A DNA stretch of 45,109 nt, from positions 1 through 45,109 of the IMG/VR virus record IMGVR_UViG_3300032086_002174; one strand, 5' to 3'. Below, one piece after another: positions 1,252-25,611 of the stretch. A program made the translations under genes and the position numbers. Source of the stretch: a virus. Position 1 is the first letter of the stretch; every line of letters starts with the position of its first letter. The notes under the pieces were generated by a model. The model ran no database searches, was not told where the DNA came from, and worked only from the letters and a program-made list of their open reading frames with translations.

Positions 1252-4200
1252 TTAGAATATTATTTCTTCCCCGTCGGGGCCAATGATTGACGATCCTCCT
1301 AAACCACGAGGTACGTTTTTGGTTATACCAACCTCTATTTTAGGAGCAGTTGGTCTTTCTCCTACTTTAGTATCTGGGGCTACCTCACAAGAATCACAGA
1401 ATCTTCTGTAGAACTCAAAGAATTTAACCAGGTACTCCTCCTCACCAGTGGCTATACCTAGTGGATCTTTTGTCATAGGCATAGTGTGAGATACAAGCTT
1501 CCACCCAGAGTCTTTGTACTTAGGATGTTTACCCTCAGCCTCGACGTCTCTAATAGCTTGGAAGTATGCTCTCTTAGTTTGCCCATAAGTGTTGTAGTAG
1601 TATGCTACTATTTCACCTTTTCTGTAGGCGTTAGATCTTGCCCATCTCTTACCTCCGGTCAATGCCCATCTTTCCTTTGCTGTGTACTTGTCGAACTTAG
1701 TAGTTGTCTCGTAGTTACAGTTGAACAAGCATGGGAGAGCCGTCTTGTTCATACCTCCCAAAAACAGGTATGATATGAGATCAAGCTTTATGAGGTCTGT
1801 GTCATCATAGTTAATTCCAGCCTTCATCTTAAGCAGAAGCTTAGAGCCTGCTGTTCCATGACAACTCATGATGGCATTCTGTACTTCCTCGAATGTAAGT
1901 CCTGGTCCCTCTACCAACGGTTCGCATGGAACAGATATTGGGACGAACGTTTCTATTATTGGATCTTCTTCTCCACCATCATCGCCTCCTGGGTCTCCCT
2001 CAGGACAGTTACCAAGTACAACACATGGGTCGTTTGGTGGTGGGCATTCTGCTGGGTCATAGCATACCACAGGTGGGTCAGTGTCACAGTCAGGGTTAGT
2101 TGGGTCTGGACATGGTGGTGGGGGTGGTGGTGCACAGTCTTCATCAACCTCTGGGTCACAACCACAGTCTTCACCTTCACAGCAGTCAACGCTATTCGGG
2201 TTACAGCTGCAGTAGTCACACAACTGGTTGTTGCTGTTTGATGCATCTATGAATGGATCATAGTTACATGCATTAGGATCTGTACATCCCTCACCTTCTG
2301 TTGTTGGGTCACATGGATCTACAACACCATCAGCCTTTGTTATGATACCACCTATTATTCTCTCAGCAAACTCTGTTTGACAATCGAAGCATGCTGGGTC
2401 TGTAGAGTTATCATCACATCCCGTATTTGGTACACATGAGCCATCATCAATTGTAGCAAACGGATCGTATTCTACATTGTCTGGATCTGTGCAGCCGTAC
2501 ACTTCATCGTTACATCCTGCTGGATTTCCACAGTCTTCCTCACAGGGAGGATCTGCATCAGTAAGTCCTACTACTGATCTAGTTACATTATCGAGGTAGT
2601 AGAATGCTTCGTTTGTGCATCCAAGCGTGTTTGCCAAGTCTGACCCAAACAGGTCTGCTTGTGGTGGGAATACAAATACGAAGTACTCACCAGGTGCAAG
2701 GTTTTCAAACAAGTATCCATTTCCTGACGCATCAGCTACGGTCTCATCATAGCTTCTGTTGACGAAGTCTGTGGCTACGCCTCCTGCTACAGGAACATCT
2801 ATAATCTGCTTCTTAGATACAGATATTGGGGTGTTGGACCCAACAATTGGTATTGTACCACCATTAGTTGCAAAGTCTACATCTACGGCCTGGTTCAATA
2901 TCATGAACACCAAGTCTGACTCACTCTGGATACCAGGCATCCCGATTATATTCGCAGGTGCAATAGCAATCTGTGCTTCTGTTGTACCTACGAACTCAGG
3001 GAAGTCTGCTGTATCTGTAGTGACCTTAACGGTCATCGTACCATTAGCGTTTACAACTGGGTAGCTGTTTGTTATTTCAACCCCTAGAACTGTCTCTGTT
3101 ATAGTTGCGCAAGTTACCGTTGCATTTGTAGTCGTAGGCTCAATCAAGCTATACCCACCTACATCTGATATAAAGATCTCTTCACAGTCAGAGTATTGAC
3201 ATGTTCCCTCAGCACCTGCGAGAGTAGCATTAGGATCGTAGTTTATAGCTATTGGGTCTGTACAACCTACAATAATCTCACAGTTACCTTCAGGGAAGAT
3301 GATGTCAGCTCCTACGAGTTCTTGGATACAGAGCGGTCCTGCTGTGTGTCCTTGGTAGATACCACTATCACTTGGTGGGTTAATGAACTCAATGCTGAAC
3401 TGATAGCTGCTTACGTTATTGAATACGAACGTATGTTGTATTCCATTTGCTGCCACATCTCCTTGTGCCTGACCCTGAGCTGCAGAAGTAAGTATCTCTA
3501 CTGTTCCATCTGTGTAGGTAACTGTTGGGGTAATTGTGTAGTTCAAGTACTGGCTAACCTCCCCAGTATTCTGATTTTGGAATTCGTAAGTGTTCGTTGT
3601 TGGGTTGTATATACCATCAATCTGAACAATTACTACAGTTTCTGAGGGATAGAAGTACTGACCCCCTGACTCAATAAGATCTGGGTCTTCGATACTTGTT
3701 ACCTCGTTCTCCAAGCACTGGGTTGTGGAGCTTACAAGGCAGTATTCATAAAGTGATGTACAATCCTTCAACTCATTATCTAGTGCAAAGCAAAGCTGTC
3801 CACTATCTCCAGGGCCTTGGCTGAATGTATCTACACAGTCCGTACCGTCATGCGCTACTGGGAATGAGTTGACCCCATCAACTTGCCATGGGAATGATGT
3901 TGGAGCATTCTGGTTAGTCAGATCTACACACCCGCATCTACCAAGCATAGTATAAGTGTAGAATGCTGGGTAGTTTATATTGTCTGCACACTCCTTGTCA
4001 GTTACTATGTACTCTACGACATACAGCGTATCTGTTGTCAAAGTAGCTGTTGTCTGAGCTCCGGAAGGTCCAGATATTCTAAACTTCGCTACGAGGGGTG
4101 CCGTGCTGGAGTAAGTTGGGAATTGTGTGCTTAGTGCACCATTGATGGTTGCCAGTGGGATAAATCCTGCTGCCTCCAAGGATGACTGGCTATTTACAGT

Positions 4201-7200
4201 CGAGTACCCTGGATTACCATTAGAGTCCTCTGCAATAAACTTCAGCTCTTGGGATATAGTGCTTGTACCTGTATTTGCATTGTTATCAGTTATGAATGAT
4301 ATCAATGTGTCAGTAGCTGCATATATTCTTAGCTTGTGGTTAGATACATCAGTTACTACATTTTCAAAGTCTGTTGTAGCATCCCCTTCTCCCACTAATG
4401 ATCCGTTGACGAATGGGAAGATAACGCTTATATCAAGCTCATGTCCCAGTGTTTGTGTGTTAGAAGCACTAGGCGCACCAGGTCCATACTGTGTAGTAGA
4501 GAGTGGTGTAGATGTTCTTGAGACAGGTACACCTGTTCTTCTCAACGCATAGTAGTAGTCTGGTGCATAGGCTGGGAAGTCACTACCAAGTTGGTTAAAG
4601 TAGACCTCACCAGAAAGTCCTCCTGTAACAGTTCCCAGCACCCCATTAAAGTCTCCTAAGCTAAATGTAGCATTGTAGTTATATCCTGCGAGGATTCCAA
4701 AGAAGTTCTCGTAGTTGCCTGTGTTCCCTGCAATTACATTGGTTATTGCAGTTGTATCAATAGGCCTAGTCCCATCACTTCCGCTCAGTATGTTGAGTCT
4801 AGTCGTGCAGTATGTGCATGACCCATCATCGGTGTTTGCTGCAGCATCGTAGTTATCTGCCAGTGGGTCTGTACACCCAAATACTGAGTCGATACAAGTA
4901 CCGTCATCTTGAATTGCATTCGGGTTGTAGTTAACAGCGTTTGGATCAGTACATCCGCTCAGCTCCCTAAATGTCCCGTATGTGACAAAGTCAAATATTC
5001 TCTTACCCTCTGATGCATAGGTAGCATTCTTTGGGGATACTATTATCCTGCTGGATCTGTATGGTATGTAGCTATTACCGCTGTCCTCTATTCCATCCAA
5101 TCCAGTGTGTGACTCAGTAATAAACTTAGAGATCTTAGCTCCTCCTGTAATAGCAGGACTCGAAGCAGCTCCTTCTCCTGTATCCTTGTGGTTGAAGAAG
5201 TTTGATCTGAATGCATCTAGAGTAATGTCTGATGGATTCAATGATGCGCCTACATCAGTCGTTGCTTGTGTGACAAATGGGTAGTCCCCTCCTGGCATCT
5301 TTCTCAGATATGGAAGATCTGGGAATACCTGCACAGGTTGAGTCAGACTTGTAACCGTCAGGAAGTTCTCTGTATTTGTAAATATGCCCTTAAGCTCATA
5401 TACGTTATTGCCTTTGTCGACAATTTCCAATGAGTGTATATCTTCAGCATCTTCTACCGTAATAGGGATAGCGTAGTTGAAGTATGTTGCATCAGATACG
5501 TTTGAAGATTGTCCTGCATTACCTGGTATGTATTGTATGTCCCAGATAGATAGTATATCTGCGAGAGCAGTAGGTGCTGCATCACTTCCTGATTTGAAGT
5601 TAGCTGATCCTGTACCCGAGCAGTTATTTCTATATCTGATGTTGAACTTAACAGTAATGCCTTTAAACCCAGGCCCAAGTCCATTTCCACCGCCTTCAAA
5701 TCCACCCTCTAAGTCTGATACTTCTACTGCGCTGCTTATAAACTCCAGGCAATCAGCTACACCAGTAGCATACACACATGGTTCAGCACCACCAGTCGAA
5801 GTTGATGGACCTGCCACTCCTGTATAGTATACCAATGCTTCTCTTCCCTCATTGAAGTCAGCTGGGGTATAGTTGAGTGTACTATTCCAGTAGTTCTGGT
5901 TGGGAGATTCGGCCACTGGTAGTGGGTCTAGGTAATATCCTGATGGTACTACTGTGTTGCTGATATTGTCCCTTCCCTGCTGCAGAGTTACATCTGTACA
6001 CTTGCATATAGCATTATCACTAAATGCATGTGCCATGTGCCAAACTTTAGATGCCGTACCAGTAAGGAACGAGTTAAAGTTGTCCTGGTAGTCGTAGTTG
6101 TATACGCTAAGACCACCACTGCTTAGTGTAGTGTCTGCGGGTACATGATAGGTTCCATGCTTTTCACCCGTAGAAGGTCCCTTATAGTAATCCCCAGTCT
6201 CAGCCATGTACACATCCGATGCGTGTGCTGGAGACATTGAAGATGACAATGAAGCTTCTGGTGCGCTTGGGCTTAGTGTTTTCTGCGTTGTACCGCTCAA
6301 GCTGTTTATAAAGTAGACGTCTTGGTACCCTGAGAATGTAAACGATGCTTTTGGTAGTGTTCTGTCTCCTACAGAGGTGCCTACTTGTACATTATTGAAA
6401 GGATTACCAAAGAGCAAGTATTGCCAATTAGTATCAGTGCTATTTGCGATGAAGGTAGATCCACCCCCACCATAAACATCCATAACTGGGTGTACGCCTC
6501 CTCCCCAAGATTCCTCTACTTTAAACCTATATAGTGGGTGTGTTCCATTCAGTCCCCCAACTGTTTCTGGGGACTCTGTTGCAAGCATTCCTCTAAGCCT
6601 TCCTACAATTTGACCTCCGTCACCATCTATATTGTACTCAGGAGCAGCAAGTGCATTTGGGTTGGTGTCTATTGAATACAGCTGGCCCTCCCCAAAGAAA
6701 GCGTTAGCTATCAACTCAATACCATTGACTGGCATATTTGCGAACTTAGCAGCTTCTGTTGTTTCAGTAAGAACTGCGTGGAAGTTATCCCTATTTCCTT
6801 GTACAAGGAACATGTTCGATAGCCCCTGCGTATCATTAGTATAGACTGTGTCCTCTTGGAACGTAAACAGCGCCCTCTTAGGGTGAAAGTCTCTAATTCC
6901 ATCAACACCAGAGCTATTCAAGTTTAGGCATGCAACGTTATTGCTTACCTGCTCTACGCCACCACCTCCGTTAACGTGAGTCACCATGTAGTCCTGCGCA
7001 TTTGTAAGTGCGAGGAACGCTGCAGTATCTACTACTGCTGTGCTAACTCCGTTCTTTGGGACAAGAGTTACTCTTGCGCATGTTACAATTGGTAGTCCCC
7101 CACCTACAGACAATACTTGCTGGAAGTAGGATGTTTTAAGATCCTTCAGCGTTGTTGCTACTGTAGTGGCTTCACCTCCTGGGTATGGGCTTATACTTGG

Positions 7201-8625
7201 GGATGAGAAGAATCCCCTGTTATGCTGTGGGTCTAGAAGCTGTTCTGCAACACTATTTTTTTCAGCAGGTGTTCCGTAACCAGCCAGTATATCTTGTACG
7301 TGTGAAATTCTTCTAGGGGCGTACATTGAGCTACCCCATATGTTGGGGGACTTTCCTGCTTGCACATCATATCCTAATGATACAGCTCTGGACTGTCCAC
7401 CACTTGTGTCTTGTGGCAAACTTCCAAATGCCCATCCCAATGTTGGTCCCTTACCGTGCCCATAGTCTACATTTCCTTCGGTATCAGGCCAAGCGTTGTA
7501 TGGGTGTGCAGTATTGCTGTTTAGGTTAGCTGAGAAGAAGTTTATAGTTCCATACTTTCTCCCCCAGCTCAAGTTACTTATATCTCCATAGACTGCACCG
7601 TTATTAGTTGGGGCATCAACTCTATCCATTTCAAAGAACTGGCCCAAGTTAATCCTACTGCTCTTTCCGAAATCGAGCTCGTTTACTCTAGCTGTAGCAT
7701 CTCCATTAATGAAGGGATCGGATGTACCTGATATCCAAGAGAATCCTGCTGTACCTCTATCAGTGCCACTCCCAAATGGTGTGCTTCCATAGTTGTAAGC
7801 ATCGTCTATAAGTCTATACGCTGGGAGAGCATATGGATTCGCAGTTGTACCAGTACCACATGCTGCTATGTCTGGGTTTTGTTCGGATGCAGTAGGTGTA
7901 CCATACCTCATAAACGAGTACAGAACATACGGAATAGCGAGTCCTTGATATCCAGCGTTACCTCTTACCTGAGGGCTAAATTCCATCCAGTTGTTACGTC
8001 CAGGAGGCAGTGTTCCTATCTGCAGCTGATTCATAGCCGTATCATCATTCAGTGTGATGATAGGCATACGCTTAATTTCCATAACGACAGGTACTGATGA
8101 CCCGTCTACAAAGTCTACTTGAATACTAGCTCTTACAACCCCTCTAATGCTTGAAGATACTGTGGCGGCTTCTTTTGAGAAACCTAGAGTTCCAAGGAGA
8201 ATGTCTCTGTGTATAAATAGGTAGATCTCTTTGTCGCCACCATTTGCTCCGTCATTGACGTAGTTGATGATGGTTACAGGGGCTTTTGATGGGTGATTGT
8301 AGAAATTAGTAGTTATAATAGAACCAAAGATTCCGCCACTTCTTACATCCTCCTTGTTGTGTCCTTCTACAAGTATGCTCTGAGCGTCTGGAGAAGTAAA
8401 GACACCATTACCGTAGCTTGTAGCAAGCAGCTTAACATCTAGGATGTGGTTGAATCTAGTACCGTTGTGCAGAGGTAATTTTCTGTAGAACGATCTAGCC
8501 TTTATGATGATGTGCGTATCATCAGAAAAATCATCGATCAGGTCATTGTTCAATGAGTTTTTAATGTCATCATACGCTACTTGGTAGACGCATGCAAACC
8601 TAAAATTAGCACTACCTCTTCTCAT
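1252..8625 (-). CDS. Giant tail/appendage protein with GCTDP Cys-rich repeats (2457 aa)
   Basis: This is the largest gene in the window and sits at the distal end of the virion operon, where tail and host-contact proteins lie. The first 1200 or so residues are Gly/Ser/Asn-rich beta-type sequence. Five Cys-containing repeats of the form GCTDPxAxNYxPxAxxDDGSC follow near residues 1223, 1248, 1785, 2040 and 2110. They are a signature of secreted Flavobacteria proteins and resemble Asp-rich calcium-binding repeats. A Pro/Cys/Asp-rich linker (about 2150-2230) with a PPPPPP run leads to a C-terminal domain whose W-x-AYxxGxxV...W spacing recalls small carbohydrate-binding modules of the CBM5/12 type. 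Probable role: adsorption or tail-tip protein. The CBM likeness is tentative. It starts two bases after the preceding stop. Confidence 0.8.
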   Translation of the reverse strand: MRRGSANFRFACVYQVAYDDIKNSLNNDLIDDFSDDTHIIIKARSFYRKLPLHNGTRFNHILDVKLLATSYGNGVFTSPDAQSILVEGHNKEDVRSGGIFGSIITTNFYNHPSKAPVTIINYVNDGANGGDKEIYLFIHRDILLGTLGFSKEAATVSSSIRGVVRASIQVDFVDGSSVPVVMEIKRMPIITLNDDTAMNQLQIGTLPPGRNNWMEFSPQVRGNAGYQGLAIPYVLYSFMRYGTPTASEQNPDIAACGTGTTANPYALPAYRLIDDAYNYGSTPFGSGTDRGTAGFSWISGTSDPFINGDATARVNELDFGKSSRINLGQFFEMDRVDAPTNNGAVYGDISNLSWGRKYGTINFFSANLNSNTAHPYNAWPDTEGNVDYGHGKGPTLGWAFGSLPQDTSGGQSRAVSLGYDVQAGKSPNIWGSSMYAPRRISHVQDILAGYGTPAEKNSVAEQLLDPQHNRGFFSSPSISPYPGGEATTVATTLKDLKTSYFQQVLSVGGGLPIVTCARVTLVPKNGVSTAVVDTAAFLALTNAQDYMVTHVNGGGGVEQVSNNVACLNLNSSGVDGIRDFHPKRALFTFQEDTVYTNDTQGLSNMFLVQGNRDNFHAVLTETTEAAKFANMPVNGIELIANAFFGEGQLYSIDTNPNALAAPEYNIDGDGGQIVGRLRGMLATESPETVGGLNGTHPLYRFKVEESWGGGVHPVMDVYGGGGSTFIANSTDTNWQYLLFGNPFNNVQVGTSVGDRTLPKASFTFSGYQDVYFINSLSGTTQKTLSPSAPEASLSSSMSPAHASDVYMAETGDYYKGPSTGEKHGTYHVPADTTLSSGGLSVYNYDYQDNFNSFLTGTASKVWHMAHAFSDNAICKCTDVTLQQGRDNISNTVVPSGYYLDPLPVAESPNQNYWNSTLNYTPADFNEGREALVYYTGVAGPSTSTGGAEPCVYATGVADCLEFISSAVEVSDLEGGFEGGGNGLGPGFKGITVKFNIRYRNNCSGTGSANFKSGSDAAPTALADILSIWDIQYIPGNAGQSSNVSDATYFNYAIPITVEDAEDIHSLEIVDKGNNVYELKGIFTNTENFLTVTSLTQPVQVFPDLPYLRKMPGGDYPFVTQATTDVGASLNPSDITLDAFRSNFFNHKDTGEGAASSPAITGGAKISKFITESHTGLDGIEDSGNSYIPYRSSRIIVSPKNATYASEGKRIFDFVTYGTFRELSGCTDPNAVNYNPNAIQDDGTCIDSVFGCTDPLADNYDAAANTDDGSCTYCTTRLNILSGSDGTRPIDTTAITNVIAGNTGNYENFFGILAGYNYNATFSLGDFNGVLGTVTGGLSGEVYFNQLGSDFPAYAPDYYYALRRTGVPVSRTSTPLSTTQYGPGAPSASNTQTLGHELDISVIFPFVNGSLVGEGDATTDFENVVTDVSNHKLRIYAATDTLISFITDNNANTGTSTISQELKFIAEDSNGNPGYSTVNSQSSLEAAGFIPLATINGALSTQFPTYSSTAPLVAKFRISGPSGAQTTATLTTDTLYVVEYIVTDKECADNINYPAFYTYTMLGRCGCVDLTNQNAPTSFPWQVDGVNSFPVAHDGTDCVDTFSQGPGDSGQLCFALDNELKDCTSLYEYCLVSSTTQCLENEVTSIEDPDLIESGGQYFYPSETVVIVQIDGIYNPTTNTYEFQNQNTGEVSQYLNYTITPTVTYTDGTVEILTSAAQGQAQGDVAANGIQHTFVFNNVSSYQFSIEFINPPSDSGIYQGHTAGPLCIQELVGADIIFPEGNCEIIVGCTDPIAINYDPNATLAGAEGTCQYSDCEEIFISDVGGYSLIEPTTTNATVTCATITETVLGVEITNSYPVVNANGTMTVKVTTDTADFPEFVGTTEAQIAIAPANIIGMPGIQSESDLVFMILNQAVDVDFATNGGTIPIVGSNTPISVSKKQIIDVPVAGGVATDFVNRSYDETVADASGNGYLFENLAPGEYFVFVFPPQADLFGSDLANTLGCTNEAFYYLDNVTRSVVGLTDADPPCEEDCGNPAGCNDEVYGCTDPDNVEYDPFATIDDGSCVPNTGCDDNSTDPACFDCQTEFAERIIGGIITKADGVVDPCDPTTEGEGCTDPNACNYDPFIDASNSNNQLCDYCSCNPNSVDCCEGEDCGCDPEVDEDCAPPPPPPCPDPTNPDCDTDPPVVCYDPAECPPPNDPCVVLGNCPEGDPGGDDGGEEDPIIETFVPISVPCEPLVEGPGLTFEEVQNAIMSCHGTAGSKLLLKMKAGINYDDTDLIKLDLISYLFLGGMNKTALPCLFNCNYETTTKFDKYTAKERWALTGGKRWARSNAYRKGEIVAYYYNTYGQTKRAYFQAIRDVEAEGKHPKYKDSGWKLVSHTMPMTKDPLGIATGEEEYLVKFFEFYRRFCDSCEVAPDTKVGERPTAPKIEVGITKNVPRGLGGSSIIGPDGEEIIF

Positions 8626-24653: not shown

Positions 24654-24788
24654 TCACCTACCCTGGCCGCGATATGCTTTCTTGTAGTTCTTAGATTTCT
24701 TGTGTACAGAAGTCTTAGTCTTAGCATGTACCCCAGGACGGGAGACGTTTTTACGAATGTAAATGTCGAATGCGGTTTGCTTTGCCAT
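24654..24788 (-). CDS. Short conserved basic protein (44 aa)
   Basis: Starts MAKQTAFDIYIRKNVSRPGV and continues with HAKTKTSVHKKSKNYKKAYR and a GQGR end. It is strongly basic. I recall near-identical SRPGVHAKTKT...NYKK-YRGQGR micro-proteins in marine Bacteroidetes phages, so it is probably a true gene despite its size. It is the first gene of the minus-strand block, 127 bases from the first plus-strand gene. Nucleic-acid binding is plausible from charge; function unknown. Confidence 0.65.
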   Translation of the reverse strand: MAKQTAFDIYIRKNVSRPGVHAKTKTSVHKKSKNYKKAYRGQGR

Positions 24789-24846
24789 GTGGTAAAGGTA
24801 AGTCAAAAAAATTATGTGGCAAAAAAATTTTTGAGAGCGGATACCA

Positions 24847-24880
24847 ACACCATCAGTGACCCCGGCAAGCCATCGGAAAT
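24847..24880 (+). repeat. Repeated leader element, copy 1 (diverged)
   Basis: Contains CACCATCAGTGAC, then 9 bases, then CCATCGGAA. It matches copies 2 and 3 with the same internal spacing but a few substitutions. It precedes the 37-codon membrane gene. Confidence 0.5.
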
Positions 24881-24914
24881 TGAAGTACCCCCCTACTTCG
24901 CAAATTAAACTGCC

Positions 24915-25028
24915 ATGGAACCTTTGACAGCACAGATGGCTGACGTCACTATCGTATGGATGTGGGTCATCATCACCACAGCATTCATCGCTTTGGTTGC
25001 TCGTGAAGCAAAGAAGCGTCATCATTAA
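24915..25028 (+). CDS. One-helix membrane microprotein (37 aa)
   Basis: ATG 24915 to TAA 25028. Short polar start (MEPLTAQMADV), one membrane helix (TIVWMWVIITTAFIALVA), then a basic end (REAKKRHH). Positive charge after the helix suggests an N-out, C-in orientation. It has its own leader repeat before it and a textbook terminator 4 bases after it, so it forms a complete small transcription unit and is likely real. Possible early host-takeover or exclusion peptide. Confidence 0.6.
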   Translation: MEPLTAQMADVTIVWMWVIITTAFIALVAREAKKRHH

Positions 25029-25032
25029 TCAG

Positions 25033-25054
25033 CAGAGCATCGTGCTCTGTTTTT
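25033..25054 (+). terminator. Intrinsic terminator after the 37-codon gene
   Basis: CAGAGCA, loop TCG, TGCTCTG: a perfect 7-bp stem followed directly by TTTTT. Confidence 0.85.
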
Positions 25055-25058
25055 AAAA

Positions 25059-25096
25059 CTCCATCATTGACCTTGACTTTGCATCGAACCTAAATC
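25059..25096 (+). repeat. Repeated leader element, copy 2
   Basis: CTCCATCATTGAC, 9 bases, GCATCGAAC, then CTAAATC. It directly follows a terminator and precedes a micro-ORF. TTGACC and CTAAAT are 17 bases apart, so it could act as a promoter; equally it could be an RNA or protein target in the leader. Confidence 0.6.
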
Positions 25097-25104
25097 CAAT
25101 TGAT

Positions 25105-25185
25105 ATGATTGCTGGCATCCTTTATGTCGCAGCTGTTTGGGCTGCATGTTTTGTTGGTGGTACAGTTTACTGTGCTGTTGTTTAA
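25105..25185 (+). CDS. Putative hydrophobic micro-ORF (26 aa)
   Basis: MIAGILYVAAVWAACFVGGT plus six residues; almost the whole peptide is one membrane helix. It follows leader copy 2. At this length chance cannot be excluded, but composition and context favour a membrane micropeptide. Confidence 0.38.
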   Translation: MIAGILYVAAVWAACFVGGTVYCAVV

Positions 25186-25204
25186 CCTACCTAAATCTGT
25201 TCGC

Positions 25205-25270
25205 ATGACCTTTGTGCTGTACTGCGGAACACTCGTCACACTTGATGAGTACCGCGCAATGATGAACTAA
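25205..25270 (+). CDS. Putative micro-ORF (21 aa)
   Basis: MTFVLYCGTLVTLDEYRAMM plus Asn. A CTAAATC string precedes the ATG at 25205, as it does for several genes here, and a UUCG-capped hairpin follows 4 bases after the stop. Low confidence on length alone. Confidence 0.3.
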   Translation: MTFVLYCGTLVTLDEYRAMMN

Positions 25271-25273
25271 TTC

Positions 25274-25295
25274 ATCGGGGACTTCGGTCCTTGAT
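25274..25295 (+). terminator. UUCG-capped hairpin
   Basis: ATCGGGGAC, loop TTCG, GTCCTTGAT: a 9-bp stem with two wobble pairs closed by an extra-stable UUCG tetraloop. There is no T-run, so it may attenuate transcription or protect RNA. Confidence 0.55.
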
Positions 25296-25298
25296 TAA

Positions 25299-25344
25299 CT
25301 CCATCATTGACAGGTGCAAAGCATCGAACTCAAATACCTAAATC
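25299..25344 (+). repeat. Repeated leader element, copy 3
   Basis: CTCCATCATTGAC, 9 bases, GCATCGAAC, then CTAAATC just before the ATG at 25345. The first 13 bases and the 9-base core are identical to copy 2, with identical spacing. TTGACA here is a perfect -35-like hexamer. Confidence 0.62.
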
Positions 25345-25611
25345 ATGAGCAACGTAGTGCAAGTCTTGGAGCAGACTCAAAAAGCTACCATCGTCAAGTT
25401 CACTGACAATCATGCGTTGGTACGCATCGCAAGTGGTAATGCATTCTCAACCGAGGATACTTACTGTTACGTTAACAAGCAACCATTGGCTGATATGCCT
25501 GTGGATGCAGAGTTTGATTTGCCTGCAGGTAAGTTGGTCACTAAGACAAACCAAGAGGGTGATGTCATGACTACTACCACTGGTATTCCGCTGAAATTCT
25601 ACTCTGCGTAA
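25345..25611 (+). CDS. Small early-region protein (88 aa)
   Basis: Starts MSNVVQVLEQTQKATIVKFT. A compact beta-rich sequence (ALVRIASGNAF, DTYCYVNKQPLADMPVDAEF, GIPLKFYSA) that looks like a small OB- or SH3-type barrel; this is a shape impression, not a match. It has its own leader repeat directly before the ATG and a UUCG hairpin after the stop. There is no signal or membrane segment, so it is cytoplasmic. Confidence 0.72.
   Translation: MSNVVQVLEQTQKATIVKFTDNHALVRIASGNAFSTEDTYCYVNKQPLADMPVDAEFDLPAGKLVTKTNQEGDVMTTTTGIPLKFYSA

Follow-up and report, generated by a model that had tools for sequence, protein, structure and literature searches.

A conserved element ahead of the early genes of crAss-like phages is a candidate promoter of the virion RNA polymerase

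A bipartite sequence with a fixed internal gap recurs in front of very small genes in a viral contig, which raises the question of what this repeated leader does. The window analysed here is the whole stretch of 45,109 nucleotides of IMG/VR record IMGVR_UViG_3300032086_002174, for which the original prediction described three copies with the same internal gap, each part of a duplicated expression cassette of leader, tiny gene and hairpin, and acting either as a phage-type promoter or as a regulatory RNA target. Two mismatch-free copies of CTCCATCATTGAC-N9-GCATCGAAC are indeed present on the plus strand (Table 1). The third, copy 1, reads ACACCATCAGTGAC-CCCGGCAAG-CCATCGGAA at about 24847-24879 and has kept the 9-nt gap despite its substitutions. 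The chance expectation is zero, and 100 dinucleotide shuffles of the window yielded no CTCCATCATTGAC-N9-GCATCGAAC match. A position weight matrix scan of the window gave the three copies 38-40 bits and the next-best site 17, with the matrix biased towards the copies because it was built from them. The exact window motif is confined to this virus and one near-identical contig. The conserved element overshoots the predicted motif on both sides and occupies about 24824-24900 in copy 1. Although copy 1 had been taken for a diverged copy, and does differ in its letters, it is better read as the parent form from which copies 2 and 3 derive, because the relatives resemble copy 1. It is intergenic, between divergent late and early genes, with no terminator before it; its AT-rich upstream block, read on the opposite strand, stands 5' of the late genes. 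As predicted, copies 2 and 3 follow hairpins, the first of which was overlooked by a simple terminator scan and picked up by folding.

Table 1. Features of the early-leader region of the window.
Feature	Coordinates	Strand	Remarks
AT-rich upstream block	24824..24843	+	ends TTTTTGAGAGCGGATA in copy 1; relatives keep TTTTTGAGAG
Copy 1 (primary) core, early-leader element	24844..24881	+	at the late/early divergence
Hairpin GAAGTA-CCCCCC-TACTTC	24882..24899	+	directly 3' of copy 1 core
Micro-gene 1, 37 aa, MEPLTAQM...	24915..25028	+	one hydrophobic stretch; relatives likewise right after the element
Terminator-like hairpin CAGAGCA-TCG-TGCTCTG + TTTTT	25033..25054 (stem-loop 25033-25049)	+	local fold -11.8 kcal/mol
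Copy 2 core (motif 25059-25089)	25055..25092	+	12 nt 5' of ATG at 25105
Micro-gene 2, 26 aa, hydrophobic	25105..25185	+	
Possible micro-gene 2b, 21 aa	25205..25270	+	
Hairpin ATCGGGGAC-TTCG-GTCCTTGAT 5' of copy 3	25274..25295	+	-10.9 kcal/mol
Copy 3 core (motif 25299-25329)	25295..25332	+	12 nt 5' of ATG at 25345
Early gene, 88 aa	25345..25611	+	G017 homolog, E 7e-29, also preceded by an element copy

The window derives from a marine crAss-like phage. Its TerL best matches those of crAss-like phages (39-42% identity), and its portal, terminase and major capsid protein match head-and-packaging PHROGs; these genes, together with the divergent late and early blocks, place it in Crassvirales, whose crAss-like phages are among the most abundant human gut viruses and also occur in the sea. 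From about 24727 the late genes are read to the left, and from 24915 the early or replication genes to the right. The late block includes a giant ORF of 2457 residues (1252-8625, minus strand) that has no PHROG match and is Pro-rich near residue 2178. A search for relatives of the phi14:2 polymerase found no recognisable RNA polymerase gene in the window contig, so the polymerase of this virus is deduced from its relatives. Relatives of the phi14:2 enzyme are encoded by five of the 17 contigs searched (E 1e-13 to 3e-17), and all five carry the element. In phi14:2 the virion RNA polymerase gene belongs to the late block, at a great distance from the divergence, and the five contigs that encode a match to it are longer; the window contig is therefore probably a fragment without the polymerase-bearing block.

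Because the region has no DNA relatives in the phage collection, relatives were gathered through the terminase: loci bearing terminase relatives were fetched, and a profile seeded with copy 1 and five relatives detected further copies in the corresponding position. These matches are upstream of the terminase on the minus strand; at the divergence point this is the early strand. They share the linear core TTTTTGAGAG..CCTACAC.ATCA..GACCCC..CTA....CG, which in the alignment of 17 contigs reads TTTTTGAGAGTG..CCTACAC.ATCA..GACCCC..CTA....CG and runs into a C block; GACCC, C52, A54, G61 and CCC75-77 are invariant. A sequence-only covariance model found the element at 31 places in 21 of 29 related contigs (1.28 Mb), many of which had supplied its training sequences; the matches outside training comprise second copies in G005/G006 and G009, both copies in G016, and those in G011, G013, G014, G015, G017 and G024. 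All 31 matches fall at the late/early switch or at most about 1.5 kb downstream of it, on the early strand, and thus recur at the starts of early transcription units in the coding orientation. Absence of the motif from relatives, which the original prediction named as evidence against itself, is therefore not what the contigs show. Among the eight unmatched contigs, six end 0.8-4.3 kb from the terminase, probably short of the divergence point, and in G021 and G022 the model found no element. Seven contigs (G001, G002, G003, G004, G015, G017 and G026) end 350-1150 nt downstream of the primary element, reflecting either a hypervariable early region that breaks assembly or a nearby physical end of the genome.

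Second or third copies are present in the window, its near-twin, G003, G004, G005/G006, G009, G016 and G017. The clearest begin 0-10 nt past a strong hairpin (-11.8 and -10.9 kcal/mol in the window, -21.1 in G003/G009, -13.1 in G004 and -11.2 in G017) and lie shortly 5' of a small gene, so that the order of terminator, element and micro-gene recurs in relatives, in support of the predicted cassette. At these hairpin-preceded copies the distance from stop codon to core is only 11-32 nt, which leaves little room for another promoter. The extra copies of G005 and G016 and the third copies of G003/G009 have no clear terminator before them, and not every terminator of the early regions is followed by an element copy. 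The first micro-protein 3' of copy 1 bears the motif MEP.TAQM, which also follows the element in G017, L109, L121 and L171. The MEP[LMI]TAQM family to which it belongs has 34-68 residues and a single hydrophobic stretch, and provides the first early gene of the window, L178, L171, L109 and L121. In L215, at about 7070-7127, tandem partial repeats ACCATCAGAGAC adjoin a second element copy, possibly a copy caught mid-duplication.

Phages phi14:2, crAss001 and cr85_1 and five Suoliviridae likewise have a counterpart 5' of their first early gene. These counterparts span Suoliviridae and Steigviridae, and those of crAss001 and phi14:2 stand directly ahead of published early operons. In phi14:2, the pattern CCCC-N-GGGG-N-CCCC occurs once in 100 kb, just 5' of the first early gene, adjoining TTTGTGAG and AACCTACAATCA; the phi14:2 element stands before gp126, at 98,010. 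An exact-pattern scan with TTTGTGAG gave no matches. The full pattern also stands at the divergence in cr85_1; in the five Suoliviridae and PhiCrAssBcn18 the divergence carries either this pattern or its CCCC...CCCC part. In crAss001 the element is on the minus strand at about 100-200, 5' of gp1, the leading gene of the right-end early operon; a search of the segment 101980-102640 of the same genome found none. A comparison of crAss001, tikkala, cr85_1, cr128_1 and bajarodcaudo virus 1 revealed a nearly invariant stretch, ATGAG...ACACCAACC..CACC.CCCCAT.ACTTAGCC..GGGG..CCCC. The sequence model finds phi14:2 weakly (E 1.6-1.7), a score that does not prove homology; place and layout suggest that the marine and gut forms are homologous. 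In addition, the early genes gp127 and gp129 of phi14:2 (KC821624, 98455 and 98914) are preceded by terminator-like hairpins with ACAATCA after them, hinting at secondary copies. The early genes of phi14:2 are transcribed by the virion RNA polymerase in a rifampicin-resistant manner (PMC10136315), and the right-end early operon of crAss001 is switched on within 10 min (PMC8375218).

Whether the element acts as DNA or as RNA was approached through its folding. RNAalifold assigned no pairs to the core, its folding relative to shuffles was unremarkable (mean z +0.12), and comparison with Rfam gave no match beyond chance; a structured, riboswitch-like core was rejected on these grounds. By contrast, the 29 nt just 3' of the core fold better than shuffles, with a mean z of -1.35 over 23 copies and of -1.47 (p 0.001) over 16 representatives. 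In the gut phages alone, folding did not significantly exceed what composition explains (mean z -0.32); the statistic therefore rests on the marine set. The letters of the hairpin vary by lineage while its pairing is kept, as in GAAGTA/TACTTC of the window versus AAGTAC-CCCC-GTACTT of G017, and L112 and L175 differ by one compensated G-C to C-G swap. The hairpin is missing from copies 2 and 3, L007 and L181, and an N4-type promoter with a hairpin at every copy was accordingly rejected despite the enrichment. A mutually exclusive CCCC/GGGG switch is possible in the gut phages but broken in the marine clade, where GGGG is missing from the window, L007, L104 and L154, and the first CCCC from G013.

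The hairpin is what gives the strongest rival its footing. An RNA-level 5' leader, in which a linear protein-binding site plus the hairpin would control early-mRNA stability or translation while the promoter lies elsewhere, would account for folding beyond chance in the 16 representatives, for the compensated swap, and for a core that lies a few tens of nucleotides from the start codon. It sits poorly with an unstructured core that occurs without a downstream hairpin in copies 2 and 3, L007 and L181; moreover, copies 2 and 3 start 0-10 nt past the preceding hairpin, so that a separate upstream promoter would have to sit inside the previous gene. Of the two functions originally proposed, the RNA target is thus rather unlikely, and the promoter is favoured by its position, the unstructured core, the cramped gap between terminator and element, and the lack of a host -7 box. 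A structured leader accounts less well than a promoter for a linear core whose downstream hairpin is common but dispensable.

Two further explanations, which we consider about equally improbable, draw on the position and on the bipartite layout. Initiator-bound iterons of a replication origin, adjoining the AT-rich block at the divergence point, would agree with the nearby minimum of the cumulative GC skew, with an AT-rich flank and a hairpin, all three usual at origins, and with a position common to all these phages, which could in principle reflect an origin there. However, the skew here tracks gene orientation, many relatives have a single copy, and the extra copies are unclustered: they lie 200-1500 nt away, in most cases each ahead of a start codon, and many of them follow a terminator. 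Operators that serve an early transcription regulator and overlap an unrecognised promoter would suit a fixed-spacing bipartite site readable by a dimer, and early regions of crAss-like phages do encode regulators; yet no palindromy is apparent in the core, and operators are usually shorter than the conserved stretch, which reaches about 75 nt in copy 1.

The signals of the host enzyme are distributed by strand. The -7 box of the flavobacterial (Bacteroidota) sigma-A promoter is TAnnTTTG (PMC9723704). Around the element, 10 of 17 contigs have this box on the late strand, compared to a mean of 1.5 and a maximum of 5 in 500 shuffles, and none of the 17 has it on the early strand, although these counts are not fully independent because the contigs are related. 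The late-strand box stands just 5' of the first late gene in the 10 contigs, and the window has TACCTTTA with one mismatch; it is likely a late promoter read by the host. Also on the minus strand of the window, a late-strand counterpart with a CTCAAAAATTTTTT block spans 24770-24843. The bias agrees with published work, which assigns early genes to the virion polymerase and late genes to the host enzyme (PMC10136315; PMC8375218). Bacteroidota sigma-A promoters, as expected for host-driven genes, adjoin the element on the late strand but are absent from the early strand that bears it. No -35/-10 or -33/-7 boxes at proper spacing were found at the element, and its stringent pattern had no exact match in 84,980 prokaryote genomes, which together with the strand counts indicates a non-host type. 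The least probable reading is that the copies are ordinary host sigma-factor promoters with TTGAC as the -35 box: TTGACC and TTGACA do occur within copies 2 and 3, but the corresponding position is AAGAC or some other variant in most relatives, and a sigma-70 scan missed the copies and counted no more sites than in shuffles.

Altogether, the element is a real, conserved cis element, and we consider it probable that it is an early promoter, most likely used by the virion RNA polymerase. We infer that transcription starts at the element, and from the polymerase-encoding relatives which enzyme reads it. The parental copy at the late/early divergence would start the early strand, and the two derived copies, immediately past terminators, would restart transcription for further small early genes, each thereby forming an independent expression unit. 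The enzyme reading the element would be the giant RNA polymerase carried inside the virion and injected together with the DNA, with no use of the host enzyme. Recognition would take place at the DNA level, through TTTTTGAGAG, then CCTACAC.ATCA..GACCCC..CTA....CG and then the C block, and the downstream hairpin would belong to the promoter or else form the 5' end of the mRNA. The two-barrel virion RNA polymerase of Crassvirales is a relative of the eukaryotic RNA-interference polymerases. More tentatively, and with the balance of probability against it, the marine and gut forms may represent a single ancestral Crassvirales-wide promoter, with a linear core and a hairpin with a C-rich arm or loop, read by this enzyme. 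If so, this enzyme would gain its first known promoter, possibly a hairpin-assisted one that evolved independently of N4. In metagenomic crAss-like genomes, the element is also a strong marker of where the early region begins and an aid to annotating micro-genes.

Three virion RNA polymerase systems offer the nearest comparisons. In Thermus phage P23-45, an AT-rich pre-early motif, tied to mapped starts and ChIP-seq, is supported as the virion RNA polymerase promoter (PMC10770324). Both systems place a conserved motif before the pre-early genes and base the promoter case on its recurrence in relatives bearing a virion polymerase, and the P23-45 enzyme is likewise two-barrel and single-chain. 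The two motifs differ in sequence, the covered part of the P23-45 account describes no hairpin, and the present element is a promoter predicted from sequence. Coliphage N4 also injects a virion RNA polymerase, of the T7 type, with its DNA to transcribe early genes from promoters with a short hairpin. Its resemblance to the present system extends to the injected enzyme, the early genes and the short hairpin; unlike in N4, most conserved bases here belong to a linear core that precedes the hairpin, and the hairpin is absent from some copies. The third system is that of phi14:2, reportedly studied by Drobysheva et al. (2021; cited in PMC7886860 and PMC10136315), which belongs to the same phage order and has a counterpart directly 5' of its early genes. 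The structure of a crAss-like virion RNA polymerase has been solved, and the literature covered contained no description of how such an enzyme chooses its start sites and no promoter sequence for the phi14:2 polymerase; the original polymerase study lies outside that literature, and priority is thus unconfirmed. With a clear consensus present in the cultured phages phi14:2 and crAss001, the choice of start site becomes directly testable.
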